A DNA stretch of 64,000 bases, from NCBI GenBank assembly GCA_026413225.1, contig CM048554.1, positions 97,071,963 to 97,135,962 of the forward strand, given 5' to 3'. Of this stretch, positions 9,339 through 57,486 are shown piece by piece. This DNA is from Otis tarda. Taxonomy: Eukaryota > Chordata > Aves > Otidiformes > Otididae. Position 1 is the first letter of the stretch. Every line of letters starts with the position of its first letter. Below the pieces are notes generated by a model. It ran no database searches, was not told where the DNA came from, and was given only the letters and a program-made list of their open reading frames with translations. Both the position numbers and the translations under genes were made by a program.

Positions 9339-9463
9339 GTGTCTTGCCGGATTTTCTGGACAGTTTTGTGAAATAGAAGTGAATGAGTGTAATTCATCAC
9401 CTTGTCTGCATGGCTCAACCTGTGAAGATCATATCAATGGATACACTTGTAAATGTCAACAAG
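9339..9463 (+). CDS. EYS: EYS exon, EGF-like (exon 23 counterpart)
   Basis: Eyes shut homolog is a large secreted protein of the photoreceptor extracellular matrix, needed for photoreceptor upkeep in vertebrates that keep it. This exon is 125 nt, entering in phase 2 and leaving in phase 1 (CAACAAG|GTAACT). It encodes the end of one EGF module (CLAGFSGQFCE) and cysteines 1-5 of the next (NECNSSPCLHGSTC ... GYTCKC), with a calcium-binding-type E-V-N-E-C start. The sixth cysteine is supplied by the next exon, so the join is natural. No stop or frameshift. As I recall the human transcript (unverified here), exon 23 is also 125 nt with the same phases. Other multi-EGF proteins (CRB, Notch-like) are alternatives, but the exon pattern and the downstream Ser/Thr-rich region favour EYS. 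Confidence 0.83.
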
Positions 9464-13798: not shown

Positions 13799-14907
13799 CA
13801 GCCCCAATCGGGACCAGACTATGCAGTCTCTCTCTCACTCCCCCCACCTTCCGAGAGAACAGGGAGAGAAAAATATAAGGAAAAATGGCTCGAGGTTTGA
13901 GATAAGGACAGGGAGAAATCCTTAAAGTTACCGTTACAGGCAAAACAGACTCGACTTGGGGAAAACTATTCATTTATTACTACAAACAGTAGGATAATGA
14001 GACAGAGAACAAGATAACCTCCCCCCACCCCTCCCTCTTCCCAAGCTTAACGTTATCTCTACTGCCTTCCCCTCCTGAGTGGCACAGGGGGGAAGAGGGA
14101 ATGGGGGTTGCAGTCAGTTCATCATACGTTGTTTCACGCCACTGCTTCATGGTCAGGGAAAGAACTCCTCACATTCCTCCCCTGCTCTGGTGTGGGGTCC
14201 CACCCATACATCACAGTCCTTCGTGGAACTGCTCCGGCGTGGGTCATCTCTTCCACGGGGGTGCAGTCCCTTCAGAACGGCTGTCCCAGCAGGCCCTCCA
14301 TGGGCCACAGCCGCATTCAGGCATCCACCTCCCCCGATATGGGGTCCTTCATGGGCTCCAAGTGGATCTCTGCTCCTCCATGGGTTGCAGGGGGACAACC
14401 TCCTCCACCATGGTCGTCACCACAGGCTGCAGGGGAATCTTGGCCATGAGCCGCATTATTCCTCCCCCTCCTTTCTGAACTGACCTTGGCGTCTGCAGCT
14501 GTTCCTCACAACAGGCTGGTACATATGTCTCAGGATCTTTTTTACTTCTCATCTCCTCTCCATTTCTTGCAGCCAGGCTGGGCTGAGTTGGGCCCAGTTG
14601 GCCGCCTGGCGAGAGGCCAGAGGGTGAGGTCTGCAAGGCCAATGAGGCCTGCGCCTCCCCCTCTGCGCCTCTGCCCCTGCTCGGCTTCTTCACATCTTCT
14701 CTCTTTTTTTTTCTGTTTTCCCCTTCTTAAATACGTTATCGCAGAGGCGTTATCACGGAACATTCTGCTACCAATCGGCTTGGCCTTGGCCAGCAGCGGG
14801 TCCGCCCTAGGCCCGGCCGAGTCCACTGAACAAAGGGGAGCAACTTCTAGCAGTTTCCTACAGAAGCTGCCACCTTAGGCCCCCCCCTCACTAACAAAAC
14901 CACGACA
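13799..14907 (-). mobile_element. Solo LTR, ERVL-like, 1.1 kb
   Basis: A complete 1109-bp LTR starting TGTCATAGTTCAGCCCC and ending ACAAAACCACGACA, flanked by perfect 5-bp target-site duplications (ACTCT). The 5-bp duplication and TG...CA ends suit an ERVL-type element. Orientation is minus because the polyadenylation signal reads AATAAA on that strand (TTTATT at 13973-13978) and a TATA-like TATTTAAG lies on the same strand at about 14726-14733. The GC-rich middle gives several overlapping open frames of 80-134 codons on both strands; they are repeat shadows. No gag, pol or env sequence adjoins it, so the internal region was lost by LTR-LTR recombination. It shares its full length with 28452-29588 and 56336-57486. 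Confidence 0.92.
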
Positions 14908-15216: not shown

Positions 15217-15341
15217 GATGGGAAGGTCTCCATTGTGAGTTGGATGTTGATGAGTGCATATCCAACCCCTGCATCCATGGCATCTGTGTCCAGAAGGATC
15301 CCAGCTTTGGTTATTCATGTTTTTGCAAGCCAGGATTTGTG
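15217..15341 (+). CDS. EYS: EYS exon, EGF-like (exon 24 counterpart)
   Basis: A 125-nt exon between an excellent acceptor (CTGACAG) and donor (GTG|GTAAGA), entering in phase 1 and leaving in phase 0. Its first residues GWEGLHC close the EGF module begun in the previous exon; the split codon G+GA gives glycine. Then comes a calcium-binding-type D-V-D-E-C start, cysteines 1-5 of the next EGF ([11 protein letters not shown] ... YSCFC) and KPGFV. The pattern has one unusual feature: between C3 and C4 the loop reads [10 protein letters not shown] and lacks the usual asparagine/aromatic pair in its common spacing. No stop. Entry and exit phases agree with human EYS exon 24 as I recall it, though that exon is probably about three codons shorter. 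Confidence 0.87.
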
Positions 15342-18057
15342 GTAAGATGCTGATGTTCTTTCTTCTTCTTCCCTTGACTTGACTATTCGTTGTTGCACAG
15401 AAAATACTATGTTATCCCTTTCCTTTTTTTACCTCACTCAGATAAAACCTGGCCTTTCTGAAAAATACAATGTTTTAGTAACTGTTCTTTATTTTGTTTG
15501 TTTTACTGACAAGAGTGATAATTTTCTAGAGAAATAGTTACTAAAATCCACAAAAAGTGGAAAAGTGAGTGTACATAAAGGTATTGCTGGTTGTCAGAGT
15601 GCATTAATATTTTTAAATTCTATTTAATGTTTTTATTTCATATATGAATTAATATTTATATATACAAAGATAACTGATATTTGAAACTATGCATACAGAC
15701 AGATATTTTGAAAACAAGTTCCCTGAAACTAAATCAAACAATTCCTCTGAATGCTTGACCCTGTGGGCTTTGGTTCTATGTTTTATTCTCTCTGTTTAAC
15801 ATACCGACAGAATTCTTTGAGGGTGGCTAAATGCCACTGCTGTATTTATCTAAGGTTGTAGTTTCCATGCTGCCACTATCTTTTTTTTGTGCCAGTTCTT
15901 TCTGTAGCTGAAGACATGTAGTTGATATCTACAATTTGAGTTTGTGCTTCACCTCATCACACTTCAAGTTTAACTTAATAGTCTAATAGTCTGGAGTCAG
16001 TAACAAGGAGAGAAAATAAGAATAATATATATAAGAATATATGTGTTTTTCTTACTTCAGTAATTCTTATCTCTACAACTCCAAGCTTGAAAACATTATT
16101 TGAATGCCTTTTTTAAAATAAATTATGACAGTGATACTTATTTTAATATCTATGCACCATTTATTTGGTGTATTTAAATCTGTAAAATAAAAGGAATAGA
16201 TTATTGTAAGTAAGATTTAGATTTGCCTTCATAGATTCTGTGCAACCAAATCAAGAAAGAAATTAGTAACTTTTCAGACTTTAGCCAGCTTTAGGGCTTC
16301 TTTCTAGAGCATCTACAGTCAATGAAGGAAAAACTAACAAAGCAATAAAAATGGAAGAAAAGTTTTTCTAAAAAGCGAAAAAACCTTCTGTCTTCAGTTC
16401 TTCTCAGGCACCATATTAATCTCTGTTCATGTCCATTCTCTCAAGAGAATCCCCATTACAGCTGGAGATACTAGCGCATATCAGGGAACACAAGTGTCAA
16501 GTGGGCTGCTCCACAAGGGAAGGTAGACCAGGAGCCAAGGATGGCAGCAAGGCAGGCAGAGGCAATGACCTTACAGGCAAGGGAAGGAGTCCCACAGTAC
16601 CCAAACAAGGACAGCAAAGCAAAACAAGTGATTGCAGTAACAATCCAAAAAGTTCTTCCAAAAGTCCAGGTACTGCCAGGCAAGTCCATGATCACAAGGG
16701 ATATAGATCTAAGGTTAAGTCAGGAAGTCAAGGCAGCAAGGCAAGGTTGGATCAACAAAGTACTACGCTTACTGTGGAAGGCTTATCTTTATTGTAAGCT
16801 CAGTCAAAGACTAAGGGCAAGGACATGAGCTTAAATGCAGCTTCTAAATGTAGGTATGAAGGCCCCAGGTGAGACTTCTCATGCATCTTTCTCACAGCTT
16901 AGGTCTTTTCATGGCAGGCTCATCTGAGATTGTACAGCTGCACTGTATCAGAGCTGACCTTAAACACCGATTGCTAAACATCTGAGTGTGAAATAAGAGG
17001 TTGCAGAGATGGATTGCAGAAAATTGAGGCTGATCAGGGCCTTGACAACAATAATATGTTCAAGTCTAAAATACCAGAAGACTGTTGTTAATGCTCTTAT
17101 CACAGGACATTTCTAAGTCCTTCCGCATGCACCCCGCTAAACACTCAGAGTGGAAGTTGCAATTCTAATCAGACTTCATCATACCAGGTGCTCCATCATA
17201 AGTAGTGTCTTCTTTGTGTAGTATAAATGTGGCACCAGATAGTGGAAGCCTGTTTAGGTTAGCTTTTATAAGTAACTGAAACTTCCTTATTTTCAGGAAT
17301 TTTGCATCCACTTCCAGAATAAGAAGTTGAGTTCCCTAAGTCTGCATATTGGTCACAATCCAAAATGTGGAGAAAGGATTCTGTATAAACTCATTAACCT
17401 CAATATAACCATCAATCTTTCCTAGATTCAGAGGACTCGTTGTATCTGAACCCAGCAGTGGAAAGGCATCCCTGAGTTCATTTTTCTCTGACTAGGACTC
17501 ACTCCTGGTGTTGATTTAAATGAGAAAAAGTAGAGGTACCCCTACATTTTACATTCAGAGACTACTAGCTCTACCAGCTTCTCTGTTGTTCCTCACCTAT
17601 TTGCTTATAGTGCAAAACCATCATTCTGGGACCAGTAGGTTCCTTATTTATGTAAGATGTCCCTATAGTAATCCACACAGGATTGTGTGGAGGCAGGGGT
17701 TTTATCTAAATAAAGTAATCTTTTTCTCAAATTCTTCTGGGGAATAATAGAGAGAGGATAAAGGTCAGTTTGAGTGTGGCATTGGCTTCGTATTTCACCA
17801 CAGGTCAGTCCTCTGCATAATAGTGTACAAATACTAATGTGACTCACTTCTACAAGTATTTTATCTTCTGTGAAGAAAACAGAGGGGAAATGATGAAAAT
17901 TATAGAACACTCATTGGAGTGGATTATTTGATTCTGTGAGCTGTCTCAAGTTCTCTCCTTTACACAGCAGCGAGTGCTAGAGTGAACATTTGTTCTCTTG
18001 AGAGTATAACACAAAGGTATTTTTAGTGTAGTATTTTACAGATAGTTTAAAGCTGTT
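15342..18057. other. EYS: EYS intron with purine-rich patch
   Basis: First half of the 5.47-kb intron (15342-20810). AT-rich, except for about 16430-16830, which is richer in G and A and holds repeated AGGCAAG/AAGGCA-type words with a 122-codon + strand open frame. That composition suggests an old unidentified repeat, perhaps LTR-derived; no family assigned. No exon found. Confidence 0.5.
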
Positions 18058-18220
18058 GTATTTGAGAAGTCATGGCGGTCTGGTGAGGTTCCCGATGACT
18101 GGAAGAGAGGGAACATAACCCCCATTTTTAAAAAGGGTAACAAGGAAGACCTGGGCAACTAAAGGCTGGTCAGCCTCACTTCTGTGCCTGGCAAGTTCAT
18201 GGAGCAGATTCTCCTGGAAA

Positions 18221-18225
18221 CCGTG
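18221..18225. repeat. Probable target-site duplication, left
   Basis: CCGTG here and CCATG at 18822-18826 flank the LTR. Uninterrupted CR1 copies read ACCATGCTAAGG at this point, so the left copy would carry one A-to-G change. Confidence 0.6.
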
Positions 18226-18821
18226 TGTACCCGGTTCGTAGGATTCCTATGCACAAAGTTCACCCAGCATATGATATTTAAAAGCACAATAGTATTTATT
18301 GCTCTATTATAGCCTTGCATAAGCAGTTACAGTCCCTAGCATGAGCAGTTACTAGCATATTGTTTTCCCTTTGTGAGAGTCTTACCAACCCGACTAAGCC
18401 AGAGACACCGCCAAGCAGGAGGATGAAGATCAGCGGGGTCAGAGCAGAGAAGGGAGGAAGGCACAGCACCTTCAGAGCGTCCCCTGTTGTTTGTAGAGTG
18501 AACTCTGGGTCCTTTCTCTCTCCCTCCGGTCCGAGCCGCCTCTGTTTATACCCTCAGCAGATTCAGTGGAAGAGTACTGACCAGGAGTTGATGCACACGT
18601 GGCCAGCGCATGCAGCAAGGCCTGCCAAGTACATGCCTTGCTGGCTAACAGTGGGTCCTGACTAGCAGCAACATACTACTGAATAACAACCCTCCTAGTT
18701 CCCCTCTCCGAGATAACAGCCCTCATAGCTCCCCTCTCCAAGGTCGTGTTCTCACAGCTGTGTGCAGCTTGTAATTTCCCACAGTGGCCCTACAGGGACC
18801 ATCACTGAAATTCCTCACACA
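18226..18821 (-). mobile_element. 0.6-kb solo LTR inside CR1
   Basis: About 596 bp of non-CR1 sequence splits the CR1 ORF exactly within the [17 protein letters not shown]-coding block. It begins TGTACCCGGTTCGTAGGA and ends AATTCCTCACACA, giving TG...CA ends and a near-perfect 5-bp duplication. A TTTATT at about 18293-18298 (AATAAA on the minus strand) suggests minus orientation. It is unrelated to the 1.1-kb LTR family nearby. The boundary could shift by two bases (TGTG start). No internal coding region is present. The family is not identified. Confidence 0.75.
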
Positions 18822-20126
18822 CCATGCTAAGGCACATGGAGAGCAAGGAGGTGGCTGGTGACAGCCAGCATGGCTTCACCAAGGGCAGATCGTGCCTGAC
18901 CAATTTGGTGGCCTTCTGTGATGGGGTGACAGCATCAGTGGACAAGGGATGAGCAATGGATATCATCTACCTGGACTTGTGCAAAGCTTTTGACATTGTC
19001 CCACATGACATCCTTCTCTCTAAACTAGAGAGACATGGGTTTGATGGATGGACCACTCGGTGGATAAGGAGTTGGCTGGATGGCAGCACTCAGAATGGTG
19101 GTCAATGACTCAATGTCCATGTGGAGACTGGTCACAAGTGGCGTCCCTCAGGGGTCCGTGTTGGGCCCGGCCCTGTTCAGCATCTTTGTCAGCGACATGG
19201 ACAGTGGGATAGAGTGCACCCTCAGCAAGTTCGCCGATGACACCAAGTTGTGTGGTGCCGTCGACTCGCTGGAAGGGAGGGATGCCATCCAGAGGGACCT
19301 TGACAGGCTGGAGAGGTGGGCCCGTGCCAACCTCATGAAGTTCAACCAGGCCAAGTGCAAGGTCCTGCACCTGGGTCATGGCAATCCCAGGCAAAAATAC
19401 AGGCTGGGCAGGGAATGGATTGAGACCAGCCCTGAGGAGAAGTACTTGGGAGTGCTGGTGGATGAGAAGCTCAACATGAGCAGGCAATGTGCTCTTGTGG
19501 CCCAGAAGGCCAACCGCATCCTGGGCTGCATCAAGAGGAGCGTGGACAGCAGGTCAAGGGAGGTGATTCTCCCCCTCTGCTCTGCCCTGGTGAGACCCCA
19601 CCTGGAGTACTGCGTCCAGTTCTGGAGTCCCCAACATAAGAAGGACATGGACCAGTTGGAAAGGGTCCAGAGGAGGGCCATGAAGATGATAAGAAGGCTG
19701 GAGCACCTTTCCTATGAGGACAGACTGAAATTTGGGGCTGTTCAGCCTGGAGAAGAGGAGGCTCTGGGGAGACCTGATAGCAGTCTTCCAGTACCTCAAG
19801 GGGGCCTACAAGAAAGATGGGGAGAGGCTGTTTAGTAGGGCCTGTTGCAATAGGACGAGGGGTAATGGTTTTAAAATAGAGGGGGGAAGATTTAGATTGG
19901 AAATTAGGAAAAAATTTTTTACGATGCAAGTTATAGAACACTGGAACAGGTTGCCCAGAAAGGTGGTGGAGGCCCCATCCCTGGAGACGTTCAAGGGCAG
20001 GCTGGATGAGGCTCTGAGCAACCTGATCTAGTCAGGGATGTCCCTGCTCCTTGCAGGGGGGTTGGACTAGATGACCTTTGAAGGTCCCTTCCAACCCTAA
20101 CCATTCTATGATTCTATGATTCTGTA

Positions 20127-20810: not shown

Positions 20811-21063
20811 GGACGAAGCTGTGAGCTTAATTACAATGATTGCCTTATACAGTCCTGCTCCACTGGGTATCTCTGTGTTGATGGAATAAACAATATCACC
20901 TGTTTACCTGCTATCCCCCAAAGCAAGAAAACTGTCACTGAAGTGTCTGAAACATTTCCTGCTGAGATTTTAGACAATGACCTTCCATCAGCCCTGGCTG
21001 TGTCTATGGAACATCGATCTAAACATGCTTCTCATGATTTTCATACAGGGGAAGTGTCCCAAG
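20811..21063 (+). CDS. EYS: EYS exon, last EGF and tail (exon 25 counterpart)
   Basis: A 253-nt exon, phase 0 in and phase 1 out, with acceptor TTTCTTTCAG and an ideal donor AAG|GTAAGT. It first completes the preceding EGF (GRSC), then encodes an EGF-like start (LNYNDCLIQSCSTGYLCVDG) with four cysteines (NDC, QSC, YLC, ITC). The module stops there: cysteines 5 and 6 never come, and the exon continues as a non-repetitive acidic, Ser/Thr-containing tail (TEVSETFPAEILDNDLPSAL and so on). This is the expected border between the EGF array and the Ser/Thr-rich linker of EYS. No stop or frameshift. Phases match human exon 25 as I recall it; this exon seems some 60 nt longer. Confidence 0.86.
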
Positions 21064-22423
21064 GTAAGTAGAAGCAGCTTCTGAATAATGCATGTATCAA
21101 GCTTCTTTCATTGTTAGTGCTTTTAAAATGGTAAGAATACTCAAAACGTGTTAATTTTCTTCTTAAGAATGTTGGTTTCTATTTCCTATACTACCTTCTA
21201 TTCTTTTGCTTTAATCCATCATCCTTTCTTAATTGGATTTATATGTAACTGGAAAATTACTCTTTTCTCTCCAAATACATTTTCCCAGCATCTTACACAT
21301 CCAGTAAGGAAAACTTAACTTTCTTTTAGCTTGGTTTTCAGTTTGCTTTGTTAGTATGAGGCATATGAAATTGCTGAACATAGAGTGTACAATCTCTGAC
21401 CACAATGCCAGTCTTCCCTTCTTCCTTGGCTAGTCAGCAGCAGAAAGATAACTTGCCTTACTCCATGGGGACTTTGGTTTTCTTTTCCTAGTTCACATGT
21501 TTTTGAAGTTCTTCCTTTTCTGTGTATCTAGATTTTTTTTTTTTCATTCAGACTATCTGTAACAAGCCTCTCAACATCTCTGCCATTCTCACTGTTTATA
21601 GTGATGTTTTTGGGAAGCAAAAAAAAATTGCCTAAATATTTGAAAAAAAGTCATCACTGAGAAGTATGTTTTATTTTGAAGATTGTACCTTCATTGTGGC
21701 CTGTTCATTTTACTAAATCTGGTATTATACAGATAGTATGTGTATAAGGCATCCTCTTTACAATTAGTTTCAGAGTTTTTTGCTTATATACTCTTTCAAA
21801 GTAACTGTGTAAGAAATAAGCCAGGAGTCTTGATTTTTTAAATTTGGGTAAATGAGTTTTACTGAACATTTGATTCCTGTTCAGACTAGTCTTTTGGGGT
21901 TATGAATAAGCTTTTGTTGCATTCTTAACAGGTAATATTCCTTCTTGATGTAAGTAATGATACTGAATGAAATGCAGTTAGTGAAAGTAGTTACAGCTGT
22001 ATATTTTCCCAAATATCATGTCAGCTAGTTTGCTGATATTCTCAATGGGTAACATTTATAATTCATTCATTTTGCATTGATTTACAGTAGTGGTTTGATT
22101 TAGAAGATTTAATACTTCTGTTCTGAGCAGTGCCACTTGTTCTGATGCTGACCCTCATACAGAATATGGATAATGGGAAGGTTAGCATTTACTCAGCTCT
22201 CGAGGTCACTAAAACCGCTTGTACACTTTTATTAAGAATATGATTTGCAGAGTTGTATTTGTCTGCTATGTAGTACTTTGGTAAGACTGAATGAGGTTTT
22301 GCTGGTCATGTAATTTGCTGCAGACTCAGTCCAGGGCCAAAGTTATTATTTTTTTTTTTTCTCTTATGTGAGGTTTTTTTGTTTGTTTTTGGTTTTTTTT
22401 TTTCTACCTTTTTATCCTTAAAG
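21064..22423. other. EYS: EYS intron with strong acceptor at its end
   Basis: A 1.36-kb AT-rich intron, the shortest between recognised exons here. It ends with a long pyrimidine tract (T-runs at about 22347-22412) and TTTTTATCCTTAAAG at 22423, a credible acceptor for the following large exon. Confidence 0.65.
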
Positions 22424-24250
22424 GTCTGGAAAAGGCAGATCTTTTCAGCTATGGGGATACTTCTGACTACTAATTTGACTAAACTGAGCTATGGACTAGG
22501 AGGACTAATTGCCACTGGAGTCAGGATAGCAACCTCAACAGATGTTCTCTCTTCACACTTTCTTAGTTCTGCTGTTCGGGTCTCAGTAAAAATAGTCTAA
22601 TATCACACCTGTACCATATGTTGCTACTGATACTTCCATAGATTTAAGGTCAGTACCTCTTTCCTAGCATAATTATGATAGAATGTTGTTCATTGCCAAT
22701 TCCTTAATAACACTTTCTATTTTCTCAACACAAGCGTCATCATTAGAGCAGCACCAGACTGTTGCTGTATCTGCCACAGACATGAGTTCAGTAATTAGCA
22801 ACATACCAGAGCTGAAATAGAATTAAACAGTGAGTCATTACTGTCCCGTAGATTAGTTTACAACTGATTCTACATGTGCAGCTTCAGTTCTCTCTAGGTC
22901 TTGAAGAGTTGTCAGATGTATTTTCAGCATTTTCTGTGTTTTCAGAGGAGCAGTGGAGATAATTATGTCCTTCAATAATTTCTTATTCCTCTACTAAGAT
23001 ACATCTAAAACCACGTATCTTTCCTTAGTTTGTTAGTTCAGTCACGAAGCTCAAATGCAAACATCTCTTGCTAGTGAATATCTGGCTGTTACTGCTTCAT
23101 CCATCAGCCAGAGACTCAAAACATCAAATCAGTCTGCTGATTCTTTGAGTTAAGCCAAATATGTGCAACATGTTCTACGACTGGAATAAAACTGATGAAT
23201 TCTCAGACCAAGTTCTGCATAGCAAACAGCCCCCATTTTATGAGATGTTTTGGATGAACTCAGTGATATTAACCAGCTGGTGCACACTAATGGAAGCTAC
23301 TGCTATTACTTCTGGGTATTTATTTTCTTCATCTAGCAAAATAACATCATCAGTAGAGTTCACAGGACTGTCATCCTTGCATCCCACTACAGGAAATACA
23401 CACACATCTCTGATAGAACAGTCTGTTCTGCCTTTTCCTTCACAAGAATCAGATACTCATTTTCCATATTTTGATTCATATTGTTTGACTATTTTTCTTT
23501 CAAAGACCATCTCTTTATAATCATAATTTTCATCGCTTACATCCTTTAAAGAGAAAAATACAGACTTGACAAAATGATTTACTACTATTGACCAGCTGAG
23601 AGCAGAGGAAATTCAACAATTACTGGAGACAAAACTGCATGATCCAGTTATGGTGATCTATCATTCATTAAGTCAGGGTACTTTCTTGGACATCCACCTG
23701 AGTAGTGTATCTCAAGTACTACTTTTAACATACATAGTAAATAGTAATTCTGAGTTCAAAACACATCTATTAGTAAATGCAGGTGAGACTTAAAATGTCT
23801 TTGAAAACAATCTGGTCAAATGTTCTTCATTTATATCTGCTGCCTACAGAAACTTCAAGTGTAGACTTAATGACGGATACCCTGAAATGTTGTAATTTTT
23901 TTAATCTTCTAGTAATCTTGGTTTTATCTGTGCAAGCCTCATCTGTACAAACATACATTTGTAAAATGTTAGTGACTAAGCATTTATCTTTAGCTGTTAC
24001 CCTACTTTAGGTTCTTTCTTACAAGAACATTAGCAGTATTGTACTGAAACATGGGATGAGCAGGCACTACTGCTGTGCATGATAAGGAGCTCCTCATGAA
24101 TTTAAATACTGTCATACCTAGACGTCACAGTATATCTGCAGTGGATTCATTTGCTGGCCTTTATCAGCTGATGTTGCCTGTTTCTCATTTTTATTCAGAC
24201 AACTTTTTGAGGTGATGGGGTATTTTTATACGAAGATAAAAGTGTCTGTC
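22424..24250 (+). pseudogene. EYS: Decayed large Ser/Thr-rich EYS exon (exon 26 counterpart)
   Basis: Starting at the acceptor in phase 1, as exon order demands, the frame reads GLEKADLFSYGDTSDY and then a stop, with another stop four codons on. Further Ser/Thr-rich open pieces follow in changing frames: LLTTNLTKLSYGLGG (22460s), NITPVPYVATDTSIDLRSVP (22590s), SSLEQHQTVAVSATDMSSVI (22740s), LEELSDVFSAFSVFSEEQ (22900s), TASSISQRLKTSNQSADSLS (23090s), a 119-codon piece at 23161-23520 rich in S and T, and a roughly 65-codon piece ending at 23790. In EYS the linker between EGF array and laminin-G domains is encoded by one very large exon (about 1.77 kb in human by memory), so size, place, phase and composition agree. 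It cannot be translated in any one frame. No end donor was located; the right limit is an estimate. Chance open frames in intron are the alternative. Confidence 0.6.
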
Positions 24251-27258: not shown

Positions 27259-28451
27259 GACCCAGGACATGGAGAAGTCTGAGGTTCTTAATGACTTTTT
27301 TGCCTCAGTCTTCACTGACGAGAGTTCCTGTCCCACCGCCCAAGCTGTAGAAGGTGCAAGCAGGGACTGCGAGGGTGAAGAACCGCCCATTGTACTCGAA
27401 GAGAAGGTTCGGGATCATCTGAGGAACCTAAAGGTGCACAAGTCCATGGGACCTGATGAGATCCATCCGCGGGTCCTGGGGGAACTGGCGGATGAAGTTG
27501 CCAAGCCACTGGCTATCGTATTTGAGAAGTCGTGGCGGTCTGGTGAGGTCCCCGATGACTGGAAGAGAGGGAGCTTAAAGCCAATTTTTAAAAAGGGGAG
27601 TAAGGAAGACCCGGGTAACTACAGGCCGGTCAGCCACACCTCTGTGTCTGGCAAGGTCATGGAGCAGATTCTCCTGGAAGCCATGCTAAGGCACATGGAG
27701 AGCAAGGAGGTGGCTGGTGACAGCCAACATGGCTTCACCAAGGGCAGATCGTGCCTGACCAATTTGGTGGCCTTCTGTGACGGGGTGACAGCATCGGTGG
27801 ATAAGGGACGAGCAACTGACATCATCTACCTGGACTTGTGCAAAGCTTTTGACACTGTCCTGCATGACATCCTTCTCTCTAAACTAGAGAGACCTGGATT
27901 TGATGGACGGACCACTCGGTGGATAAGGAGTTGGCTGGATGGCCACACTCAGAGAGTGGTGGTCAACGGCTCAATGTCCATGTGGAGACCGGTCAGGAGT
28001 GGCGTCCCTCAGGGGTCTGTGCTGGGCCCGGCCCTGTTCAGCATCTTTGTCGGCGACATGGACAGTGGGATAGAGTGCACCCTCAGCAAGTTCACCGATG
28101 ACACCAAGTTGTGTGGTGCCGTTGACACACTGGAAGGGAGGGATGCCATCCAGAGGGACCTTGACAGGCTGGAGAGGTGGGCCCGTGCCAACCTCATGAA
28201 GTTCAACCAGGCCAAGTGCAAGGTCCTGCACCTGGGTCATGGCAATCCCAGGCACAAATACAGGCTGGGTGGAGAATGGATTGAGACCAGCCCTGAGGAG
28301 AAGGACTTGGGAGTGCTGGTGGATGAGAAGCTTAACATGAGCAGGCAATGTGCTCTTGTGGCCCAGAAGGCCAACCGCATCCTGGGCTGCATCAAGAGGA
28401 GCGTGGACAGCAGGTCAATGGAGGTGATTCTCCCCCTCTACTCTGCCCTGG
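27259..28451 (+). mobile_element. Younger CR1 LINE, left part, inside old CR1
   Basis: CR1 ORF2 sequence from the [19 protein letters not shown] block through the RT domain to LPLYSALV, where the solo LTR cuts in. It remains open over this entire stretch, within a 426-codon frame (27188-28468) that begins in the older CR1 and ends in the LTR. RT motifs are visible ([24 protein letters not shown]), but the catalytic box reads FTDD instead of the FADD seen in the other copies, and a PVSHTS replaces PVSLTS. The copy is therefore likely inactive even without the LTR. The rest of the element lies at 29594-30117. Confidence 0.94.
28447..28451. repeat. Target-site duplication CCTGG, left
   Basis: CCTGG ends the left CR1 segment; an exact copy starts the right CR1 segment at 29589. 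Removing the LTR and one copy restores the CR1 order seen in the other elements. Confidence 0.92.
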
Positions 28452-29588
28452 TGTTCTGGTTTTGTTAGTGAGGGGGGGCCTAAGGCGGTAGCTTCTGTAG
28501 GAAGCTGCTAGAAGTCGCTCCCCTTTGTTCAGTGGACTCGGCCGGGCCTAGGGCGGACCCACTCCTGGCCAAGGCCGAGCCAATTGGTAGCAGAATGTCC
28601 CGTGATAAGCCTCTGTGATAACGTATTTAAGAAGGGGAAAACAGAAAAAAAGGGAGGAGAAGATGTGAAGCAGCTGAGCGGGGGGCAGAGAGGGGGAGGC
28701 GCGAGCCTCGTGGGCCTTTCAGGCCTCACTCTCTGGCCTCCCGCCGGGCAGCCGACTGGGCCCAACTCGGCCCAGCCTGGCTGCAAGAAGTGGAGAGGAG
28801 ATGAGAAGTGAATAAGATGTAAAAAGGATCCTGAGAGGTGCCTGCCAGCCTGTTGTGAGGAACGGCTGCAGACACCAAGGTCAGTGAAGAAGGAGGGGGA
28901 GGAGTAATGCGGCTCCTGGCCAAGATTCCTCTGCAACTCGTGGTGAAGACCATGGTGGAGCGGGTTGTCCCCCTGCAGCCCACGGAGGTCCACGGAGGGG
29001 CAGAGATCCACCTGCAGCCCGTGGAGGACCCCGTACCGGGGGAGGTGGAAGCCTGAAGGAGGCTGTGGCCTGTGGAGGGCCCGCTGGGGCAGCTGTTCTA
29101 GAGGGACTGCACCCTGTGGAGGAGATGACCCATGCCAGAGCAGTTTCACGAAGGACTGTGGCCTGTGGGAGGGACCCCACGCTGGAGCAGAGGAGGAATG
29201 CGAGGAGTTCTTCCCCCGACGATGACACAGCGGCATAAAACAACGCGTGATGAACTGACCGCGACCCTCATTCCCTTTTCCCCCCACCCCGCCGTGCCTC
29301 TCGGGAGGGGAAGGTAGTAGAGATAATGTTAAGCCCGTGAAGAGGGAGGGGTGGGGGGAGGTTATCTTGTTCCCTGTCTCATTCTCCTGCTAATTTTAGA
29401 AATAAATGAATAGTTTTCCCCAAGTCAAGTCTGTTTTGCCCGTAATGGTAACTTTAAGGATTTCTCCCCGTCCTTATCTCAAACCTTGAGCCATTTTTCT
29501 TATATCATCTCCTCCTATTCTCTTGGAGGGTGGGGGGAGCGAGAGAGAGACTGCATAGTCTGGTCCCGATCGGGGCTGAACTACGACA
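28452..29588 (+). mobile_element. Solo LTR, ERVL-like, inside young CR1
   Basis: A complete 1137-bp LTR, starting TGTTCTGGTTTTGTTAGTG and ending GGGCTGAACTACGACA, with perfect 5-bp duplications (CCTGG). It is the plus-oriented relative of 13799-14907 and 56336-57486. A TATA-like TATTTAAG at 28624-28631 and AATAAA at 29401-29406 fit the U3-R-U5 layout. The GC-rich middle yields a 252-codon minus-strand open frame and several others; none is supported as a gene. No internal retroviral sequence remains. Placement inside a CR1 gives a clear relative age: it is younger than that CR1. Confidence 0.95.
29401..29406 (+). promoter_or_regulatory. LTR polyadenylation signal
   Basis: AATAAA in the 3' part of the solo LTR, in the position expected for the R region. 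It lies in sense to EYS, so it could in principle end transcripts early, but nothing in the sequence shows that it does. Confidence 0.5.
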
Positions 29589-30117
29589 CCTGGTGAGACC
29601 CCACCTGGAGTACTGTGTCCAGTTCTGGAGTCCCCAACACAAGAAGGACATGGACCAGTTGGAGAAGGTCCAGAGGAGGGCCATGAAGATGATAAAAGGG
29701 CTGGAGCACCTCTCCTGTGAGGACAGGCTGAGAGAGTTGGGGCTGTTCAGCCTGGAGAAGAGGAGGCTCCGGGGAGACCTGATAGCGGTCTTCCAATACC
29801 TCAAGGGGGCCTACAAGAAAGATGGGGAAAGGCTGTTTAGTAGGGCCTGTTGCAATAGGACGAGGGGTAATGGTTTTAAAATAGAGGGAGGCAGATTTAG
29901 ATTGGAAATTAGGAAAAAATTTTTTCCAATGCGAGTTATAGAACACTGGCACAGGTTGCCCAGAAAGGTGGTGGAGGCCCCATCCCTGGAGACGTTCAAG
30001 GCCAGGCTGGATGAGGCTCTGAGCAACCTGATCTAGTCAGGGATGTCCCTGCTTCTTGCAGGGGGGTTGGACTAGATGACCTTTGAAGGTCCCTTCCAAC
30101 CCTAACCATTCTATGAT
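29589..30117 (+). mobile_element. Younger CR1 LINE, right part
   Basis: Begins with the second CCTGG and continues CR1 ORF2 ([60 protein letters not shown], ending SNLI and a stop), then the 3' UTR hairpin and CTATGAT tail. A single frame covers 29530-30036, including a short LTR-derived beginning. It ends at about 30117 where the older CR1 resumes with TCCTGGGCACCTGG. Confidence 0.94.
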
Positions 30118-56335: not shown

Positions 56336-57486
56336 TGTTGTAGTTCAGCTCTGATCGGGACCAGACTACACAGTCTCTCTCTCACTCCCCCCACCCTCTG
56401 AGAGAATAGGGGGAGATAATGTAAGAAAAATGGCTCAAGGTTTGAGATAAGGACAGGGAGAAAATCCTTAAAGTTACTGTTGCGGACAAAATGGACTTGA
56501 CTTGGGAAAAACTATTCATTTATTACTAAAAACAGCAGGATGAGACAGAGAACAAGATAACCTCCCCTCACCCCTTCCTCTTCCCGAGCTTAACATTATC
56601 TCCACTACCTTCTCCCCTGAGCGGCACAGCAGGGAAGAGGGAATGGGGGTTGTGGTCAGTTCATTACGTGTTGTTTTACGCTGCTGCTTCATGGTCGGGG
56701 GAAGAACTCCTCACATTCCTCCCCTGCTCCGTTGTGGGGTCCCACTCATACGCCACAGTCCGTCGTGAAACTGCTCCGGTGTGGGTAATCTCTTCTACGG
56801 AGTGCAGTTCCTCCAGAACAGCTGCCCCAGTGGGCCCTCCATGGGCCACAGCCGCCTTCAGGCACCTGCCTGCCCCAGTGTGGGGTCTTCCATGGGCTGC
56901 AGGTGGATCTCTGCTCCTCTGTGGACCTCCATGGACTGCAGGGGGACAACCTGCTTCACCACGGTCATCACCACAGGCTGAAGGGGAATCCTGGCCAGGG
57001 GCCACATTACTCCTCCCCCTCCTTCTTCACTGACCTTGGTGTCTGCAGCCGTTCCTCTCACGAGAAAAATTCTTCACAACAGGCTGTCAGATGCCTCTCA
57101 GGATCTTTTTACATCTCATTCACATCTCATCTCCTCTCCACTCCTTGCAGCCAGGCTGGGCCGAGTTGGGCCCAGTCGGCCGCCCGGCGGGAGGCCAGAG
57201 GTTGAGGCCTGCAAGGCCCACAAGGCTTGCGCCTCCCCCTCTGCCCCAGCTCAGCTGCTTCACATCTTCTCTCTTCTCTTTTTGTTTTTCTGTTTGCCCC
57301 TTCTTAAATATGTTATCGCAAAGGCGTTATTGTGGAACGTTCTGCTTCCAATTGGCTCGGCCTTGGCCAGCAGTGGGTCCGCCCTAGGCCCGGCCGAGTC
57401 CACTGAACAAAAGGGAGCAACTTCTAGCAGTTTCCTACAGAAGCTACCACCTTAGGCCCCCCCTCACTAAAAAAAAAAACACAACA
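56336..57486 (-). mobile_element. Solo LTR, ERVL-like, third copy
   Basis: A 1151-bp LTR of the same family as 13799-14907 and 28452-29588, in minus orientation (TTTATT at 56519-56524). It starts TGTTGTAGTTCAGCTCTG and ends AAAACACAACA. The flanking 5-mers are CTCTG (56331-56335) and GTCTG (57487-57491), a duplication with one mismatch. An A-run has grown near the right end, and a short extra piece (GAGAAAAATTC, about 57063) is absent from the sister copies. No internal region is attached. Open frames of 66-139 codons on both strands are repeat shadows. Confidence 0.92.

Follow-up and report, generated by a model that had tools for sequence, protein, structure and literature searches.

A probable fossil of the Ser/Thr-rich linker exon of EYS in a bustard genome

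In EYS, one very large exon (exon 26) encodes a Ser/Thr-rich linker between the EGF array and the laminin-G domains. In the bustard stretch analyzed here, intact EGF exons are followed by Ser/Thr-rich fragments broken by stops, raising the question of whether that exon has decayed and, if so, whether EYS survives without its linker or is itself being lost. The window, that is, the whole 64,000-nucleotide stretch analyzed, corresponds to C3:97071963-97135962 of a 1.2 Gb assembly.

The EYS locus and the window

The window was placed inside EYS. Matches to Morus EYS were collinear across C3:96634302 to 97466358. The locus keeps the EYS exon order, an EGF array and then five laminin-G domains, and so qualifies as an EYS ortholog. 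The EYS protein of another bustard, Chlamydotis macqueenii, contains five laminin-G stretches recognized by Pfam, and its residues 1058-2324 were matched in the genome of the window. Exon numbers are those of human EYS, transferred by homology. The original prediction had claimed three intact EGF exons in the window, and all three were found intact on reading (Table 1). Exon 25 was 97.7% identical to Chlamydotis EYS and 87% identical to Morus EYS (tblastn, 86 residues).

Table 1. Positions of EYS features in the window (+, forward strand; a slash marks the splice site)
Feature	Position	Strand	Basis or remark
EYS exon 23 (EGF), intact	9339..9463 (about)	+	tblastn 100%, 43 aa, Chlamydotis and Morus EYS
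EYS exon 24 (EGF), intact	15217..15341 (about)	+	tblastn, 44 aa: Chlamydotis 95%, Morus 98%
EYS exon 25, intact	20811..21063	+	phase 0 in, phase 1 out; donor aag/GTAAGT
Surviving 3' splice site of exon 26 and pyrimidine tract	22404..22423	+	sequence read
Probable fossil of EYS exon 26 (Ser/Thr-rich linker)	22424..24179	+	tblastn, profile alignment, tree
First lesion, extra base in G run (GGGG)	22453..22456	+	4-base step at 22453 versus open P0122 frame
Expected exon 26 5' splice site	24174..24186	+	now CCT/GTTTCT, -4.2 bits

Two families of interspersed repeats were also noticed in the window. A LINE-like repeat, which we take to be CR1, occurs at 18052-20026 and 27512-30031, with pieces 87-96% alike; in the first copy the pieces are separated by ~600 bases more (18225 to 18822) than in the second, and the first seems to carry a foreign insert. 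A repeat of ~0.8 kb occurs at 14074-14886 and 56616-57463, with pieces 83-92% alike, and by eye a similar piece seems present in a separate stretch (L031, 4062-4995). No Rfam family was found in the window at gathering scores.

Homology and lesions of exon 26

Exon-26 peptides from kiwi, chicken, turtles, lizards, and mammals were used as tblastn queries (n = 10) and matched 22457-23986 in a changing frame. The best E value was 3e-35, obtained with the kiwi peptide, and the dingo peptide gave 3e-25; the final piece, 24069-24173, reached only E 0.62 on its own. We then aligned the region, allowing for frameshifts, with a profile built from exon-26 peptides, the protein P0122, and three more open frames. 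The alignment covered columns 1-602 of 603, with 338 of 584 aligned columns identical, and scored 885. Control segments scored far lower (mean 28.8, sd 3.3, maximum 36.5); these were 80 random 1841-nt segments taken on either strand of the 264 kb around the fossil, which was itself left out. Homology thus spans the whole exon and goes beyond local Ser/Thr richness. No intact exon 26 turned up elsewhere in the 264 kb spanning introns 25 and 26, where all other matches had E of at least 0.001.

The default alignment needed 16 frameshift steps and crossed 8 in-frame stops, counts that rose to 18 and 9, respectively, under lenient penalties. It started at the acceptor (22423/22424) and stopped at 24173, with the exon expected to close at 24179/24180. 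The Ser/Thr-rich pieces in shifting frames with many stops that had been described from the sequence are therefore real, but they end before the proposed 24250. The frame opened at 22424, said to stop after 16 codons, does so: it reads G, completed by the last base of exon 25, then LEKADLFSYGDTSDY, then a stop. It stops so early because one surplus base in the G run at 22453-22456 shifts the frame (Table 1). Collectively, a whole-exon alignment at this score, with these lesions, upholds the claim that exon 26 has decayed. We consider it highly probable that 22424-24179 is the fossil of a phase-1/phase-1 EYS linker exon which died on the bird branch, and that EYS persists without the linker.

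Could the stops be assembly or sequencing errors? Some lesions do fall in short runs, such as the GGGG at 22453. Yet more than 20 of them lie in exon 26, whereas no stop occurs in any other EYS exon that was read in this assembly, and the models of other birds omit exon 26 too. We regard error as scarcely conceivable.

The 23 lesion events were scattered as at random, and the longest lesion-free stretch, 326 nt, was not unusual (P 0.20), which led us to reject residual constraint in the fossil. Dating from lesion counts pointed to tens of millions of years, but was too rough to use. The lesion-free stretch, 23192-23518, contains the most conserved block of the linker, and one may wonder whether a segment like this one still serves as an in-frame exon, especially as the chicken model also uses exon-26 pieces. 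However, random scatter produces so long a stretch in 20% of cases, the frame entered at the acceptor is the one that stops after 16 codons, and the composite models look like patching by gene predictors. We hold partial exonisation to be most unlikely.

The two splice sites have had different fates. The phase-1 acceptor that had been noted at 22424 is present (tttctacctttttatccttaaag/GTCT) and 85% of its tract is pyrimidine. At the expected exon end the donor has been lost, which fits skipping. For comparison, on the same weights the donors of exons 25 and 27 score 12.4 bits, near consensus, and 11.4 bits. Exon-26 read-through proteins of six relatives (P0122, P0125-P0129) continue with GEF or GEY, and, judging codons from residues, this fits a G/GTGA donor that the relatives would have and that is absent from the window. 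Donor-like sites exist elsewhere, namely CAG/GTGAGA at 23782 inside the fossil (10.9 bits) and another just beyond it at 24211 (6.2 bits). Together with the strong-looking acceptor, they mean that some transcripts may enter the dead exon.

Exon 26 is in phase 1 at its acceptor, and exon 27 completes the same exon 25 codon; the 3' phase is assigned by homology. Phase 1 at both ends had been proposed, and it holds for the human exon: by the accessible text of the two sources, human exon 25 ends at c.3877 (PMC8032658) and intron 26 starts after c.5644 (PMC7057104), so that exon 26 measures 1767 nt, or 3 x 589. Being divisible by three with phase 1 at both ends, it could in principle be skipped in human as well.

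The exon 25-27 junction and the state of the gene in birds

Exon 27 starts at C3:97176952, position 104990 of the joined 264 kb and ~84 kb beyond 21063. When 20811-21063 was joined to it, the result was open in one of three frames (...HTGEVSQ/DFSYAHYHGDSYLEFQG), and the translated junction was that of the Chlamydotis model. Skipping exon 26 thus keeps the frame, as had been anticipated, and the same junction occurs in other birds. A protein search gave 200 matches; our statements rest on the best 120 of these, which include 12 bird proteins. Exon 25 passes directly into exon 27 in 9 of the 12: Chlamydotis, Vidua, Morus, Phalacrocorax, Coturnix, Passerculus, Melanerpes, Anas, and also Cyanistes, whose model starts inside exon 25. 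The Tympanuchus model starts just before exon 27. The Gallus and Apteryx models are composites with 196 and 367 exon-26 residues, respectively, which leaves room for the possibility that some birds are less broken.

We estimated linker length as the distance from the last EGF, located by a rough pattern, to laminin-G 1. Among the 12 listed bird proteins, seven had 78-80 residues, against 310 in Gallus and 428 in Apteryx. Anas gave 160 by the EGF pattern despite its direct junction, and the Cyanistes and Tympanuchus models are cut short by their late start. With the kiwi exon-26 sequence as query, one search returned 18 proteins of 1136-3614 aa (14 mammals, two turtles, kiwi, and chicken) and another returned 8 of 531-1689 aa (gorilla, elephant, Rhineura, Pogona, and four others); among these 18 + 8 matches, no bird protein had an exon 26 open over its full length. 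The sensitivity of this query is limited, the 1136-3614 aa search having missed Anolis and Elgaria, which both bear exon 26. In the tree, the fossil grouped with Apteryx and Gallus at 100/99, and with chicken at 90/67. P0122, probably a crocodilian protein, has 600 open exon-26 residues with sequence past both edges and came out as sister to the bird group with modest support (87/86). The decay had been proposed for this one bird; given the direct junction in most listed bird proteins, the loss looks bird-wide.

The other possibility raised by the original prediction was that this lineage is losing EYS altogether; exon 26 would then be just the first wreck in sight. The later laminin-G exons give it no support: from exon 27 to the last exon, 43, we found no stop inside exons (matches of at least 78% identity, Chlamydotis residues 1058-2324; residues 1424-1458 were matched separately, in stretch L042). 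Three matches did contain a stop (IL*YQF, KSNM*, and F*GCIF), but the flanking sequence places each stop on the intron side of an acceptor. The last EYS exon sits in an open frame of 427 codons. Upstream, exons in the six EGF-side stretches L032-L037 were stop-free as well. Lesions are thus found in exon 26, while exons 23-25 and 27-43 have no stop. Identity to Morus EYS was 81-94% in 13 of 14 matches, the remaining one (71%) including intron, and EYS models that lack exon 26, 2288-2950 aa long, exist for several bird genera. In favor of a dying gene, roughly one quarter of Chlamydotis EYS lies beyond our reading, all of it upstream: the main search covered 1757 of 2324 residues, with the remainder upstream except for the exon in L042, and residues 76-386, 455-531, 624-738, and 798-823 lie outside the upstream reading. 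On balance, we consider the death of the whole gene very unlikely.

What would then happen at the seam? Lacking its donor, exon 26 would not be defined by the spliceosome, and 21063 would be joined to C3:97176952. The resulting EYS would connect the EGF array to the laminin-G half through ~80 residues instead of ~640. We propose that exon 26 died in the bird lineage, once this had diverged from crocodilians, as selection on a disordered spacer relaxed, and that the EYS gene itself would have stayed under selection.

The main rival to this scenario is that the gene is split, or makes a truncated isoform, at the fossil. The acceptor at 22424 would then open an alternative last exon, yielding an EGF-only EYS ending in GLEKADLFSYGDTSDY, and the laminin-G half would have its own start. 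The acceptor is there, AATAAA occurs at 23185 and 24710, and two bird models start at the seam, Cyanistes in exon 25 and Tympanuchus with an 11-residue leader followed by exon 27. Human 5'-only and 3'-only EYS isoforms are also described in the accessible text of PMC8127272. Against this, eight listed bird models cross the seam, and the Tympanuchus leader had no good match on the + strand of the 264 kb (best 6/11), nor did a start exon of the Tympanuchus kind turn up there. We therefore judge a split gene unlikely and retain the fossil exon in a living, shortened EYS.

The linker in other vertebrates and in human disease

What kind of protein segment has been lost? Ser and Thr make up 25-28% of the linker in five sequences, and no Pfam family was found in P0122 or P0126. 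AlphaFold, run on the P0122 linker and five relatives, returned a mean pLDDT of 27 and a pTM of 0.18. The linker is probably a disordered spacer, although a prediction from six sequences bears weakly on this point. Its composition, together with the lack of a Pfam family and of a confident fold, makes the role of a losable spacer plausible.

Exon 26 holds c.4957dupA, the most frequent pathogenic EYS variant in a worldwide patient set (107 of 841 alleles, 12.7%), and EYS variants cluster mostly in exons 26 and 43, according to the accessible part of PMC8226124. Birds thus appear to make a shorter EYS that lacks the stretch in which the most frequent human EYS blindness mutation falls. Should birds indeed have done without exon 26, EYS as such would not strictly require its linker. 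In human, a change in the exon 26 donor, c.5644+2T>C, was classed as pathogenic in a family in the part of PMC7057104 available, where an RNA test is not described; this argues against the view that human EYS could lose the linker without harm. Judged by titles and abstract openings, we found no paper on exon 26 loss in birds. An earlier report annotated chicken EYS in 2010, with 33.1% identity to human, and its accessible text leaves exon 26 unmentioned (PMC3045506).

Outside birds, exon 26 is kept in mammals, lizards, and P0122. Linkers measured 633-655 residues across 14 mammal proteins, 606 in Anolis X1, and 669 in Elgaria. Shorter ones were found in Anolis X3 and Pantherophis (73 residues) and in teleosts (mostly 60-75, with outliers). 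A sturgeon protein, P0107 of Huso huso, has a 470-residue linker (residues 253-722) with a local match to exon 26 (E 6e-10 with a kiwi piece). This match implies that the exon is older than tetrapods, and the length of the Huso linker suggests that teleosts probably lost or shortened theirs. Among turtles, the Pelusios and Terrapene models are piecewise and that of Chrysemys starts within exon 27 (P0024, P0086, and P0113); turtles may also have lost exon 26, or their models may be poor.

These observations lead us to a broader view, in which our confidence is evenly balanced: the EYS linker would be an optional module of great age. Sturgeon and amniotes have it, in teleosts it is short, a snake model skips it, a lizard can skip it, and in the bird lineage it would have been erased. 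The bird retina would then have run for tens of millions of years on a join of ~80 residues, making birds a natural long-term trial of exon 26 skipping.

Compared with known EYS genes, the bird fossil occupies the same place as the mammal and lizard exon 26, after the last N-terminal EGF exon and before laminin-G 1, with phase 1 in (and, in human, phase 1 out). It differs in that the mammal and lizard exons hold ~530-600 open residues, whereas the fossil has stops, frameshifts, and no donor. Teleost EYS, Anolis X3, and Pantherophis resemble the bird in joining the EGF array to the laminin-G half by a short linker. Yet Anolis keeps exon 26 as an option, as its X1 and X3 forms show, while in the bird it is dead; the teleosts and the snake were compared as proteins. 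By the accessible text of PMC3045506, EYS is apparently absent in mouse, rat, and guinea pig. Rodents and the bird would thus both point to an EYS that is dispensable in whole or in part, with the difference that in rodents the gene seems absent, whereas in the bird one exon only has gone.
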